From NCBI GenBank assembly GCA_000442015.1, contig KE561226.1:1992-59181 (forward strand): DNA of 57,190 nt. Reading direction: 5' to 3'. The notes under the pieces were generated by a model that was given only the letters and a program-made list of their open reading frames with translations, was not told the DNA's origin and searched no databases. Made by a program: the position numbers and the translations under genes. This DNA comes from Rozella allomycis CSF55 (lineage: Eukaryota > Rozellomycota). Numbering within the stretch: the first letter of the stretch is position 1; every line of letters begins with the position of its first letter. This document shows positions 50,010 through 56,897 of this stretch, in pieces.

Positions 50010-53000
50010 ATGAGTGAACGCATACCTATAATATTCAAGGAGCACTTGCAGGTAAGCTTTAAAAATATCCAAATAAAGCTCCAAAACATTGGTGTGAATG
50101 CAGCAAACATAGGCTTCAACACTTTGACTATGGAATCGGACAAGTACATTTGTATTCGCGAAAAGGTTGGCGAGCAGAACCAGTTGGTGATAATCGACAT
50201 GGGCGATGTATCCAACCCGTTGCGCCGTCCTATATCCGCTGATTCAGCGATTATGAATCCGGCATCCAAGGTGATTGCACTGAAAGGTAGATGGTTTGTT
50301 TCTGGATAATGTAGCTGGCAAGCAGTTGCAGATATTTAATTTGGAGCTCAAGGCCAAGATAAAGTCGTTCATGTTGAGCGACGATGTGGTGTTTTGGAAG
50401 TGGATTAATGTGAACACTATTGGGATGGTGACGGAGAGTGCTGTGTTTCATTGGAGCATGGAGGGGGAGAGCAATCCGGTCAAGGTGTTTGATCGGCATG
50501 CGTCGTTGAATGGGTGCCAGATTATCAATTATAGGACGAATGAGGAGGGCAGCTGGATGTTCTTGGTGGGGATATCTGCGCAACAGGGAAGAGTTGTTGG
50601 ATCGGTGCAGTTGTATTCAAAGGAGAGGAGTGTGTCGCAGCCTATTGAGGGACATGCTGCGGCCTTTGCAGAGATAAAGTTGGATGGCGCGATGTATCCT
50701 ACAAAGTTGTTTACGTTTGCGGTGAGAAGTCAGATGGGTGCAAAGGTAATTGAGTGGGTGTGGTTAGAGTAGCTTCATTTAATTGAGATTGATCACAAGG
50801 AGGGGAATCCTGTGTTTGCCAAGAAGAATGTTGATATATTTTTCCCGCCCGAGGCTGTGAATGATTTTCCAGTTTCGATGCAAGTTTCAAGCAAATACAA
50901 TGTGATATTTTTAGTTACTAAATATGGTTTTTTGCATATTTATGATGTTGAGAGTGGAATGTGTTTGTATATGAACAGGATATCAGCTGATACGATATTT
51001 GTGACTGCAGATTATGAGACTACGAGTGGGATGATTGGAGTGAATAGAAAGGGGCAAGTAACGATTAATGGTTGAAAAGAAAGGTGTTGTCTGTGAGTAT
51101 TGATGAGCAAAACATTGTGCCATATATTTTGCAGCAGATGAATAATCCCGAGTTGGCTATAAGAATAGCATCTAGAAATAATTTGCCTGGTGCTGATGAA
51201 TTGTATGTTGGTAGATTTAATCAGCTTGTTCAAATGGGAAATATGTCAGAGGCTGCCAAAGTAGCTGCAACGTCACCAAAGGTATAGAATGATTTGTGTT
51301 TGGAATCAAGGGGATATTGAGAACTCCACAAACAATAGAAAAGTTTAAGCAAATGCAGGTAAGAATGTAGATATGGATTGAGAGGTGCAACCGGGACAAG
51401 TTCCGCCAATTTTGCAATACTTTGGAATATTGTTAGAAAAGGGAGATTTGAACAAGTATGAATCTATTGAGCTAGCGAGACCTGTGTTGATGCAAGGGAA
51501 GAAGCAGTTGTTGGAGAAATGGTTGAAAGAGAATAAGTTGGAGTGTAGTGAAGAGTTGGGAGACATTGTGAAGCAGCAAGATGTGATGTTGAGTTTGAGT
51601 GTTTATTTGAGGGCGAACATCCCACATAAAGTGATTCAGTGTTTTGCAGAGACTGGACAGTTTAATAAGATTGTGTTGTATGCCAAGAAAGTTGGGTATC
51701 AGCCAGACTATTTATTCTTGCTGCAAACTATTTTGAGAGTGAATGGAGAAAAGGGAGTAGAATTTGCGCAAGAGTTGGTTAAGAGTGAAGGAGGCCCATT
51801 GTTGACTTTGGAGCAAATAACTGAATGTTTTATTACAGCTGGTATGGTTCAGCAACTGACAGCGTTTTTATTGGAAGCATTGAAGGAGAATAAACCAGAG
51901 CAAGGTGGATTGCAAACTAGGTTGATAGAGATGAATTTGATGCAAGCGCCGCAAGTAGCAGATGCTATATTGGGCAATCAAATGTTTAGTCATTATGATA
52001 AGAACAGTGTAGCTCAGATGTGTGAAAAGGTTGGATTGTATCAAAGAGCGTTGGAACATTATACTGACATTTATGATATAAAGAGGACAATAGTGCATAC
52101 ACATTTGTTGAATCCAGAAGTAAAATGATTTGAGTGAGATGATTGTAGTGGGTAGTTGGGTTTTTTGGCAAGTTGTCAGTTGAGCAGAGTATGGAATGTT
52201 TGAAAGAAATGTTGAATAACAATATAAGACAGAATCTGCAGATTGTGATTCAAGTTGCAACTAAATATTCAGATTTAATTGGAGCACAAAATTTGATTGA
52301 ATTGTTTGAATCATTCAAGAGTTATGAAGGTAAGATTGATTTAATTTAATTTGTTATTAGGATTGTATTATTATTTGGGATCTATTGTGAATTTTAGCCA
52401 AGATGGGAATGTGCATTTCAAGTATATCCAAGCAGCGTGTAGAACAGGACAGATGAAGGAAGTTGAAAGGATTTGCCGGGAGAGTGGAGTGATTGATGGA
52501 GAAAAAGTGAAGAATTATTTAAAGGAAGCGAAACTGAATGACCAATTGCCATTGATTATCGTTTGTGATCGATTTAATTTTGTGCATGATTTGGTATTGT
52601 ACCTTTATAAGAACAATCTACCTAAATATATTGAAATTTATGTGCAAAAGGTGAATCCAAGTAGAACTCCAGCAGTTATAGGAGCATTGTTGGATGTTGA
52701 TTGTGAAGAGAATATAATAAAGTCATTGTTGATGAGTGTGAGAGGGAATATTCCTATTGATGAATTGTGTACTCAAGTGGAGCAAAGAAATAGATTAAAA
52801 GTAAATTGTTAATGAGTAAGAAAAGAGATTATATTGCCATTCTTGGAGATGAAGATAAAGGAGGGAACTAGTGACCAGAATGTGTATAATGGGATTGCCA
52901 AGATTTACATTGATAGCAACAATAATCCTGAATCATTCTTAAAAGAAAACAAGGTAATGCAATTTATATTTTAATATAGGTAATGATAAAGTAAACTCCC

Positions 53001-55690
53001 AGATTAGATGTATGATCCATTGGTGGTTGGAAAGTATTGTGAAAAGAGAGATCCCTATTTGGCATTTATAGCATATGAACAAGGGAGATGTGACAAGGAA
53101 GTTATTAAAATAACAAATGAGAATCAAATGTTTAAACACCAAGCAAGATATTTGGTAAAGAGAAGAGATATTGAATTGTGGATGAGTGTGTTGATTGATA
53201 ATCCCTTCAAGAGAGAATTGATAGATCAAGTAGAATAAATAGATTGAATTTAAAAGGTTGTAGGAATAGCGTTGCCAGAAACACAAGATCCAGAAGATGT
53301 GTCAGTTACTGTTAAAGCGTTTATGAATGCAGAATTGCCAAATGAGTTGATTGAATTATTAGAAAAGATTGTTTTGGAATCATCAGTGTTTAGTGATAAT
53401 AGAAATCTGCAGAATTTGTTGATATTGACTGCGATTCAAGCTAATCCAACTAAAGTGTTGGAGTTTGTGCAGAGATTGGACAACTATGATGGGCCAGATA
53501 TAGCCAATATAGCAGTTGGAAATGGATTGTATGAAGAAGCATTCATCATCTACAAGAAATACAATATTTATGAGAATGCAATTAGAGTGTTGATTGAGAA
53601 TATAAAGAATGTAGAGAGGGGACAGGAATATGCGAATCAAGTTGATCAATCCATTGTGTGGTCTATCTTGGCAAAGGCGCAGTTGGAAGAAAAGAGAATT
53701 AAAGAGAGTGTTGAATCTTATTTGAAAGCGAGTGATGCTTCTAATTATGAGCAAGTGTTGAGTGTGTTGAAAGAGATTGGAGAATATGAACAATTGATTA
53801 AATATCTGAGAATGGCTAAAACAAAGAGCAGAGAATCTATTATTGAATCAGAATTACTCTACTGTTTAGCCATGACAAATAGAATTGCTGAAATTGAAGA
53901 ATTTTTATCAAATACAAATATAGCTAATGTGGAAATGGTTGGAGATCGATTATATGAACAAGAAATGTATCTTCCTGCTAAAATATTGTTTAATTCAATT
54001 TCCAACTATGCTAAATTAGCGTCAACGTTGGTTCATTTGAAAGAGTACCAGCAGGCTGTTGAGTGTGCTAGAAAAGCTAATAGTACAAGGTTAGTTTAAT
54101 TGATTGTTTAAATTTGTAGAGTTTGGAACCAGGTTATTGTTGCTTGTATTGAAATGAAAGAGTTTAGATTGGCTCAGATCTGTGGGTTGAATTTGATTGT
54201 GCATGCGGAAGAATTGTCTGTTGTTATAAAGTTGTATGAGCAGAATGGATTTATTGAAGAATTAACGAATCTATTAGAAAGTGGACTAGGTAATTAATAG
54301 TAGTTATATGTTAAATAGGTAATTGATAGTACCTCTCTCTATAATGTTAGGTAATTACTTTCAACTTCACTAACTCATAGGTATGGAAAGAGCTCATATG
54401 GGGTTGTTTACAGAGTTGGCGATTGTTTATTCAAAATATAAACCAGAAAGATTGATGGATCATTTGAAATTGTATTATTCAAGAATCAATATACCCAAAG
54501 TTATTAAATCAGTTGAATTGGCACACATGTGGCAAGAATTAGTATTTCTGTACATCCATTATGAAGAATTTGACAATGCAGCACTTTCAATAATAAAATA
54601 TTCAGCAGACGCTTGGGATCATGATCAATTTAAAAATGTTTTATTAAAAGTTTCGAATTCTGACATTTTCTACAAGGTAAATTCTGTTAAGATATAAGAG
54701 AAAAAGAGTTTGAATTTCTATTTGAATGAACATCCATTATTGTTGAATGATTTATTAAATTCAATCAGCCAAAAGATTGATTACACAAGGCTAGTTCAAA
54801 TATTTCAAAAGAATAATCATCTTCCATTAATCAAACCATTTCTACAAACAATTCAACAAGTAAACTTTTGAATTTTGAATTTTAAAGATTAATAATCCAA
54901 CTGTTAACATGGCATTCAATCAACTATTAATAGATGAAGAAGATTACAACGCTTTAAGAATCTCTATTGACTCTTTTGAAAACTTTGATTCTATTTCATT
55001 GGCTGTTTCTCTAGAAAATCATCCATTAATTGAATTTAGAAGAATTTCTGCTTATTTATACAAAAAGAATAAGAGATACAAGCAATCTGTTACTCTGTCA
55101 AAGAAGGATTTGTTGTTCAAAGATGCAATGGAAACAGCTGCAGAGTCTAGAGACTATGAGACGGCTGAAGAGTTGTTGAAATATTTTGTCAAGAATAACA
55201 AAAAGGTACGTGAAAAGTTTAAATGTTATATTAGGTAAAGTTGTTTAATTGTATTTATAATAGGTAAAGTTGTTTAATTGTTTATAATAATAGGTAATCA
55301 AAGTATTTAATCACTTCAAAATAGGAATATTTTAGTGCTTGTCTTTATATCTGCTATGATTTGTTAAGACCTGACGTTGTTATGGAATTGTCTTGGAGAT
55401 TCGGTTTAATGGACTTTGCTATGCCATTCATGTGTCAAACTATGCGTGAGTACATGACAAAGGTATTTCATTCAATTCATCCATCAGTAGATTGAAACAT
55501 TAGAGAAACACAACAATGAACGAAATCAAAAAGAAGAAGAAGCTGAAAAAAGAGCCATTGACAATTCAATCATCAGAGGTACTCTTTTAACTAATTTATT
55601 TCTATAGGTGCTCCTTTGATGCTTACTAATGGTCCTGTATCAATTCCAAACACTTCTCAAGCTCAAATGCCATTCATCCCTCAATGGTAA
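50010..55690 (+). CDS. CHC1: Clathrin heavy chain
   Basis: Eighteen intron sites. Removing all intron bases (686) leaves 1665 codons, 1664 residues, close to the usual 1675. Landmarks: [19 protein letters not shown] in the N-terminal propeller (1-330), [20 protein letters not shown] in the arm, LERAHMG-type [22 protein letters not shown] and the C-terminal PLMLTNGP. Single introns are 26-31 nt. The first (50052-50078, 27 nt) has no stop. Three sites hold tandem arrays (52954-53007, 54290-54380, 55206-55324). Clathrin forms the coat of endocytic and trans-Golgi vesicles. Confidence 0.96.
52954..53007 (+). repeat. Two-unit tandem intron array in clathrin
   Basis: Units 52954-52979 (26 nt) and 52980-53007 (28 nt) each begin GTAATG and end AG with no base between. 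They interrupt the frame between KENK and [10 protein letters not shown]. Together they remove 54 nt. Confidence 0.85.
54290..54380 (+). repeat. Three-unit tandem intron array in clathrin
   Basis: Units 54290-54318 (29 nt), 54319-54350 (32 nt) and 54351-54380 (30 nt) all begin GTAATT and end TAG. Units one and two share about 13 starting bases (one mismatch). Removing all 91 nt joins LLESGLG to MERAHMG in frame. Confidence 0.88.
55206..55324 (+). repeat. Four-unit tandem intron array in clathrin
   Basis: Units 55206-55234 (29), 55235-55263 (29), 55264-55293 (30) and 55294-55324 (31 nt). Each starts GTA and ends ATTAG or ATAG, with AG directly next to GT at every boundary. Units two and three share their first 18 bases and differ only by a small indel. 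Removing all 119 nt joins NNKK to EYFSACLY in frame. Confidence 0.92.
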
Positions 55691-55767: not shown

Positions 55768-56897
55768 TTATTTTTTACTACTCCAAAAGTGCTTGATAAC
55801 ATCAGTCAAAGTAACAACACCAATCAACTTTCTATCTTCATCAATAATCCACACCCTATGAGACTTTGTCGCTATAATCTTTCTCATAGCAAACCCTAGT
55901 GATGACTTTAACGTCACCTCAAACACTGGGAATCTATCCTTGCCTTCATTCTGCAATCCCTCCTGCGTCAACACCAACGACACAAAATGTGAACACGTTT
56001 GCCATAATCTCGAATATCTATTTTGCTTCAATATATACTATTCAATCATTAACATCCCACTTACCTTGATATCCGTCATTGATATATTCCCAACAAGCGA
56101 TTCACCACTACCAGCATCAACAACCGCAACCGAAGATATCCCCTTGGCACTCATCAAACTCAAAGCTTCAAGCACCGGAGCCTCACTATTCACCGAAATC
56201 ACAGGATTATTTCCAAATCCCAGCTCTCCAAGCGTCTTTGACGCAAACGCATTCAACTCTGGTTGCTACTCTACAATCATCCCTCCAATTACCTACCATC
56301 CTCAACCACTACACCTCTTACCTTCATCAACAGTCCCGCCAGATACTTGACCACATCAGTCTGCGACAACACACCCACAACCTCGCCATCCCTCATCACA
56401 TTCAGCCGATGCACACCCTTCCCACTCGCCAGTATCTCCGCAGCCTCTTTCAACGGCGCATCAGCACTAACACTATAAAACGGATTCTTCTTTGACAAGT
56501 CTACTCTACACTCCACCAATCCCATACCAGCAGCCACACGCATCGACATCTTATTCACATCCATCGTAATCGCCTTGCGCACCACATCCCTAATATCCAT
56601 CGTCTCGTCTTCAGGCACCCGCTCAAGCTCCCGGTGCTTGAAAACCATCAACACATAGTCCGCAATGTCGCGGTAGTCGAACATTCCAACATACTTTTTT
56701 AAGGCGGAATCGTACACCGGCGCAGACGATATCTTGTGGCTCACAAGAACCTGGAATTTATATAGTGTTTGGTTACCTAGCTCAGTTAAAATTGATGGAC
56801 GTACCTCACAACCGTCTTCAATGGAATGGTCCGCATCGATTATTACTACCTTTTGGGAGGAAACTAGCTCGGAACATTGGATGTGCCACAAATCCAT
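55768..56897 (-). CDS. SNF4: AMPK gamma / SNF4-like CBS protein
   Basis: Four CBS motifs in 330 residues after removing introns: SSAPVYDSALKKYVGMFDY, then KGVHRLNVMRDGEVVG, then ISSVAVVDAGSG, and SHRVWIIDEDRKLIGVV. This is the energy-sensing subunit of SNF1/AMPK, binding AMP, ADP and ATP. Introns: two-unit arrays at 56751-56804 and 56266-56321 and a 27-nt intron at 56038-56064. The first array is 54 nt with no stop and so reads through in the raw frame. The start at 56897 gives a short N-terminus before CBS1. Confidence 0.85.
56266..56321 (-). repeat. Two-unit tandem intron array in SNF4
   Basis: On the minus strand unit one is 56321-56293 (29 nt, starts GTAAGAGG) and unit two is 56292-56266 (27 nt, starts GTAATTGG). 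AG and GT abut between them. Removing both joins LAGLLMK to QPELNAF in frame. A shorter end for unit two would give a frame shift. Confidence 0.8.
56751..56804 (-). repeat. Two-unit tandem intron array in SNF4 (first site)
   Basis: On the minus strand unit one is 56804-56777 (28 nt, starts GTACGTCC) and unit two is 56776-56751 (26 nt, starts GTAACCAA). The pair is 54 nt with no stop, so the raw frame reads through it, but the family alignment (IEDGCE joined to VLVSHKISSAPV) needs both removed. Confidence 0.75.

Follow-up and report, generated by a model that had tools for sequence, protein, structure and literature searches.

In the clathrin heavy chain gene of Rozella allomycis CSF55, four complete introns of 29 to 31 nt lie end to end at a single site. 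Our analysis confirmed that this run is real, and that it is a general feature rather than a unique one: 55 runs of two to six such units, called arrays here, were counted in 286.8 kb of sequence. The frequency of arrays among intron sites increases with the length of the direct repeat shared by the two outer splice junctions, and we consider the origin of the arrays to be explained with fair confidence. Splice junctions and exon joins are marked below with a slash.

Four complete introns in tandem in the clathrin gene

The window, i.e., the whole stretch of 57,190 nucleotides that was analyzed, has a GC content of 34.5%. Its census gave 105 single introns and four arrays, one of which is doubtful. 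The features discussed here are the following.

50010..55690, + strand: clathrin heavy chain gene, 1664 aa once spliced (hand-corrected model, PDB clathrin matches)
52954..53007, + strand: third clathrin array, two units (26 and 28 nt), with a gapless join FLKENK/MYDPL against solved clathrin
54290..54380, + strand: second clathrin array, three units (29, 32 and 30 nt), 91 nt in all, splitting a Gly codon, with a gapless join SGLG/MERAH against solved clathrin
55206..55324, + strand: four-unit array of tandem complete introns in the clathrin gene, 119 nt, with a gapless protein join
55206..55234, + strand: unit 1 of the four-unit array, 29 nt, GTACGT..TTAG
55235..55263, + strand: unit 2, 29 nt, GTAAAG..ATAG, forming a repeat with unit 3
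55264..55293, + strand: unit 3, 30 nt, GTAAAG..ATAG, forming a repeat with unit 2
55294..55324, + strand: unit 4, 31 nt, GTAATC..ATAG
56266..56321, − strand: doubtful two-unit array in a neighbouring predicted gene, from the gene model only, its 3′ boundary varying between two analyses

The hand-corrected spliced clathrin model (1664 aa), whose start codon was placed with the help of the N-terminus of the deposited R. allomycis CSF55 protein (P0121), matches this protein with 100% identity over 100% coverage. The best hits of this clathrin included named fungi at 58-63% identity, vertebrates being listed at about 53-58%; a dicyemid animal as the source, which the 26-28-nt introns and an animal-like clathrin end had suggested, is ruled out by these identities. 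When the last 419 residues of clathrin were used as a query, this locus only was retrieved, with five exon matches. The earlier note had described GT..AG units of 29, 29, 30 and 31 nt with zero bases between them and had called the second and the third almost the same sequence. The units are indeed seen at 55206-55324, and units 2 and 3 form a 29-nt repeat that is 93% identical in register. The array contains stop codons, its length of 119 nt is not divisible by three, and there is no N inside it. Furthermore, the exons that flank it join gaplessly when compared with solved clathrins (...VKNNKK/EYFSACL...). The untrained first pass of our gene finder placed a 101-nt gap here (55235-55335), and the trained passes returned the four units. 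The clathrin gene still seems readable because splicing takes out the whole run.

Census of intron arrays

A Viterbi gene finder, written and trained for this work, was run on 286.8 kb comprising the window and the loci L001-L014 and L021-L057 (L015-L020 are contained in other loci). Blocks that hold an N or lie 12 nt or less from a sequence end were excluded before counting, as were genes with a coding score below 15 and 55 other long gaps, listed in part and taken on visual inspection to be mostly intergenic mispredictions. The output consisted of 100 genes, 461 single introns and 55 N-free arrays. The single introns measured 23-34 nt with a mode of 26-28 nt; the 26-31 nt that the earlier note gave for the other introns is thus roughly correct. 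The arrays were made of two (21 arrays), three (12), four (14), five (4) or six (4) units. The units were 23-32 nt long with a mode of 29 nt, all except two falling within 26-32 nt, and summed to 51-180 nt per array. The total length was divisible by three in 15 of the 55 arrays. At the level of the units, 53 out of 180 had a length divisible by three, and seven of these 53 were without an in-frame stop.

The sample was for the most part selected with the pattern TAGGTAA, which favours TAG/GTAA junctions and, in two-unit arrays, matching flanks. Because most loci were picked by pattern, the ratio of arrays to single introns is not a genome frequency. The key flank tests were redone on the 34 arrays of at least three units, where a pattern match needs the flanks less. 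A stretch with no listed pattern hit (C132:1-100000; there is one hit on the contig) yielded 165 single introns and one doubtful array.

Nine arrays in four conserved genes were gapless against solved structures (three in clathrin and two each in TOP2, PRPF8 and a DNAH7-like dynein). PRPF8, a core spliceosome protein, bears arrays itself (L048 and L054, C134:14612-19480). The arrays cluster in the genes of axonemal dynein, TOP2, clathrin, PRPF8 and a helicase that we take to be MTR4-like; other long predicted genes are without arrays. Gene length as the sole cause was ruled out, since models of 3423 and 2647 aa have none. On contigs whose length is known, the mean relative distance of arrays to the contig ends was 0.37 over 20 clusters (KS p=0.04).

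The spacing of splice junction motifs was evaluated genome-wide on an assembly of 9.97 Mb, the control being the same pattern read backwards. TAGGTAA pairs with gaps of 18-28 were found 117 times against 4 in the control, while shorter gaps (0-17) gave 2 against 17 and longer gaps (29-46) 6 against 18. For the less stringent AGGTAA pairs, the counts were 254 against 123 with gaps of 19-29, and 35 against 214 with gaps of 30-48. Triple TAGGTAA runs occurred 45 times, overlapping matches counted, and not once in the control. The excess is therefore limited to the spacing of intron units. The earlier note had proposed such a genome-wide scan, holding that a lack of similar arrays elsewhere would speak against its reading; many exist. 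Values of 11.86 Mb and 34.5% GC have been published for this species (PMC5701793), with which the size of the assembly and the GC content of the window agree.

Unit number in different versions of a site

A difference in unit number is seen at the TOP2 site ..MTDQ/DHDGSH, at which one version has three units (30, 31 and 28 nt) and the other at least five, the longer version being made of four whole units and a piece adjoining an N. The stretch beside these arrays is 97.8% identical over 325 nt between the two versions. In the TOP2 gene (L041, L042, L051; C101:149303-156008) the arrays lie at conserved motifs, and both versions adjoin an N join. At further TOP2 sites and in one gene of C65, presumably a glycogen-debranching enzyme, the unit make-up varies and the exons are closely alike. 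The first unit of PRPF8 is either 26 or 31 nt long. Since a triploid pattern has been reported for strain CSF55 (PMC6784888), we infer that such close assembled pairs are haplotypes.

Single-N joins with similar flanks are frequent in the assembly. Similar flanks were seen at all 11 single N's of the window (positions 338, 1465, 2315, 3081, 4138, 4519, 8355, 8684, 9414, 10140 and 12438) and at 29 of the 55 that were tested elsewhere, the best match between flanks being 76-100% identical. From these repeated flanks, such single N's are read as overlapping contig ends that were left unmerged. Of 14 rows of apparent TRF tandem duplications in the window, five span a single-N join and are probably artefacts. 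One broken stretch amid many single N's (L036; C132, about 52-53 kb) looks like what we take to be a retrotransposon integrase.

Array frequency and junction microhomology

Microhomology was defined as the direct repeat that a site has in common between its first 5′ and its last 3′ junction. The fraction of sites occupied by arrays was 1/192, 1/96, 9/111 and 13/53 at repeats of 0, 1, 2 and 3 nt, respectively, and 7/26, 9/19 and 15/19 at repeats of 4, 5 and at least 6 nt. The comparison of arrays of at least three units with single introns gave p=1.8e-16. A graded array frequency of this kind is a prediction of microhomology-driven tandem duplication, and the trend points to this process. Considering the flanks alone, AG precedes and G follows 39 of the 55 arrays against 41 of the 461 single introns, and 16 arrays are without this context. 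The same context was found in 25 of the 34 arrays of at least three units (p=3e-17 against the single introns). An exon end in AG, with TAG uncounted, was present at 19 of these 34 arrays and at 104 of the 461 single introns (p=1e-4).

The units also bear traces of their relationship. Between-array unit pairs (1965 sampled) had a median identity of 0.54 with a 99th percentile of 0.72 and no evident family sequence, while neighbouring pairs had a median of 0.61. The unit cores of 33 out of 123 neighbouring pairs were more similar to each other than this 99th percentile, and 20 of the 55 arrays contain at least one such closely alike pair. The other 90 adjacent pairs are below the cut-off, and the duplication of those units is therefore invisible in sequence, yet they keep both splice sites. 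The whole-intron tandem duplication put forward in the earlier note is well supported by the 33 related pairs, together with the microhomology trend and the difference in unit number between versions.

The sites that carry arrays are biased in phase. Thirty-four of the 55 arrays are in phase 1, and 31 split a Gly codon as G/GN. This Gly split was found in 26 of 41 single introns and 28 of 39 arrays of the AG/G context, against 24 of 420 other single introns. The share of TAG among final acceptors is.37 in AG/G single introns, which is low as in arrays, and.59 in the other single introns. AGG sites in the predicted coding sequence have no phase-1 bias (787 of 2306). The clustering of arrays in certain genes and the phase-1 preference go beyond what duplication alone explains, and it may be that a single class of intron sites gives rise to arrays.

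Two other origins were weighed against tandem duplication. Introner-like introns might target phase-1 AG/G and re-enter at the AG/G that each insertion regenerates, building arrays without slippage. Such targeting would account for the phase-1/Gly bias and the low TAG acceptor share that AG/G single introns and AG/G arrays have in common, and for the lack of bias at coding AGG sites; besides, 28 of the 123 adjacent pairs are no more alike than the median of between-array units. Nevertheless, we consider insertion improbable, because the sampled between-array units are without an evident family sequence, neighbours in an array are often alike, and the graded dependence on microhomology is better fitted by slippage. 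The repeated units could also have been produced by the joining of overlapping contigs, given the many single-N joins whose flanks repeat each other and an apparent 8-unit block of TOP2 that includes such a join. However, all 55 counted arrays, including that of clathrin, are N-free, and divergent in-frame units at exact intron boundaries are not expected from duplicated contig ends. We therefore regard an assembly artefact as very improbable.

Splicing route and base polarity

Judging from the arrangement of the sites, successive unit-by-unit splicing would be a plausible route. Three observations favour it: the units span a narrow range of lengths, their internal sites are intact, and longer single gaps are scarce, those of 35-50 nt numbering 8 against 392 of 23-33 nt. 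The internal AG/GT junctions are intact in 123 of 123 cases in the 55 arrays, which were defined in this manner; since blocks were scored as arrays because their junctions were intact, this intactness is partly ascertained. Five N-free long gaps in the models of array-bearing genes (50, 146, 147, 193 and 197 nt) could not be split into units and were considered, on visual inspection, to be model errors. A search for branch-point motifs returned a weak TTTRA-like motif alone, alike in single introns and units.

The base composition changes along the arrays. Along arrays of at least three units, the proportion of G decreases from.256 to.076 and that of C increases from.066 to.156, while single introns are flat. 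The difference in skew between first and last unit was significant in these 34 arrays (p=1.6e-5) and not in two-unit arrays (p=0.12), and the polarity was positive in 15 out of 15 contig stretches. The passage from a G-rich first to a C-rich last unit is seen, for example, at 55206-55324 and 54290-54380 of the window. The final acceptor is AAG in 29 of the 55 arrays against 139 of the 461 single introns. The base polarity argues against fully equivalent units whose order is free.

This polarity would fit removal of the whole array in one step, using the first 5′ and the last 3′ splice site, the internal AG/GT junctions then being relics of duplication refreshed by unit turnover. The two ends may in that case be brought together if the G-rich half folds back on the C-rich one. 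The expected number of cross-half pairs was 17.7 against 14.3 with permuted unit order (p=0.025), first-last pairs numbered 6.65 against 4.58 (p=0.03), and the first-last duplex was slightly better than between mismatched arrays (p=0.04). However, comparison with unit-core shuffles showed no difference in folding energy, in end distance or in first-last pairs, and the mean folding energy was no lower than in dinucleotide shuffles. A hairpin model of the whole array thus found no support from the energy, and the weak excess of cross-half and first-last pairs (p about 0.03) is linked to polarity. The rarity of single gaps of 35-50 nt also stands against one-step removal, as do the five long gaps that appear to be model errors and the 90 of 123 adjacent pairs that retain both splice sites in spite of their low similarity. 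A fission-yeast intron that extends across four AGGT copies (cited in PMC4974935) fits one-step removal equally well. The polarity and this analogous case keep one-step removal alive, but on the whole we find it rather unlikely.

Comparison with known systems

In fission yeast (genes SPOG_01682 and SOCG_00815), one intron is reported from ESTs to span four tandem AGGT copies of 24 bp, and a second intron to span two copies (Zhu and Niu 2013, cited in PMC4974935). The arrays resemble the AGGT tandem-duplication introns of the Rogers model, in which tandem repeats bounded by AGGT are spliced out and the protein is unchanged (PMC4974935). The AG/G(T) direct repeat at both ends, by which such introns are recognized, is present as AG before and G after in 39 of the 55 Rozella arrays. 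In the fission-yeast case, however, exonic DNA was copied and two genes are named, whereas in Rozella the units are intron-sized, bear splicing signals and occur at many sites.

Drosophila ratchet points lie inside long introns and require a cryptic exon (PMC8605326). All 123 Rozella junctions share with them an acceptor adjoining a donor at AG/GT, with an apparent zero-nucleotide exon, but the Rozella pieces are nearly all 26-32 nt long with up to six in series. The junctions had been called textbook recursive splice sites in the earlier note. The AG/GT likeness holds, and identity does not, known ratchet points being in long introns.

Stwintrons, including the symmetrical sister stwintrons of Hypoxylaceae, are likewise complex intervening sequences of fungi with related partners, taking more than one splicing reaction (PMC8469720). 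They are nested, the internal intron breaking a splice element of the external one (PMC8469720), whereas the Rozella units are complete and lie side by side. The dual-specific splice sites of UBC also have AGGT in tandem repeats, where it can serve as donor or acceptor, the copy number being tolerated via splicing (PMC10809524). There the repeats are coding and splicing alters the product (PMC10809524), whereas in Rozella it is introns that are repeated, and the predicted product stays the same. No description of genome-wide arrays of complete introns was found in the available parts of the open-licence literature searched. The assertion that nothing of this kind had been described has to be qualified, the fission-yeast AGGT introns being the nearest precedent (PMC4974935).

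Discussion

The explanation that we hold to be on balance probable combines slippage or unequal exchange with unit-by-unit excision and a near-neutral drift of unit number. Most introns of R. allomycis measure about 24-33 nt. If the exon before a single intron ends with AG and the exon after it starts with G or GT, the intron is flanked by a direct repeat, ranging from AG/G to TAG/GTAA. Replication slippage or unequal exchange at these short repeats could then copy the whole intron exactly, giving AG/GT..AG/GT..AG with zero-length exons. Every unit would thereby have its own 5′ and 3′ splice sites, and a spliceosome restricted to intron-sized pairs could excise the units singly and in any order to give the same mRNA. 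As any unit count would result in the same mRNA, the unit number would be nearly silent and free to drift, much as in a minisatellite that is removed by its own splicing. The data show the architecture of the arrays, their extent across the genome, the restored reading frame, the dependence on microhomology, the kinship of some of the units and the differing unit number of two assembled versions of one site. Within this explanation, we infer the slippage event, the unit-by-unit excision, the near neutrality and the haplotype status of the versions.

It is about an even chance, in our estimation, that the arrays are self-excising intron minisatellites, which slip at the microhomology of their own junctions, vary in copy number between haplotypes, leave the protein constant and have their units removed independently. 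The copy number of such minisatellites would be silent because the units leave independently and in any order, the spliceosome accepting only intron-sized pairs.

The multiplication of introns is a long-standing problem for which there are few natural intermediates. The R. allomycis genome seems to offer many of them, ranging from one unit to six and including recent as well as old ones, together with junction microhomology as a quantitative predictor of arrays and at least one locus with versions of differing unit number. This makes it possible to test whether a minimal-intron spliceosome measures length, whether adjacent introns are removed independently, and whether the AG/G contexts of introns reflect the chemistry of duplication and exact loss. 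It is also a warning for annotation, because in a genome of this kind an "intron" of 119 nt may really consist of four. If the minisatellite reading is true, the matching of AG/GT would be at the same time the mutational substrate of the arrays and the cause of their silence.
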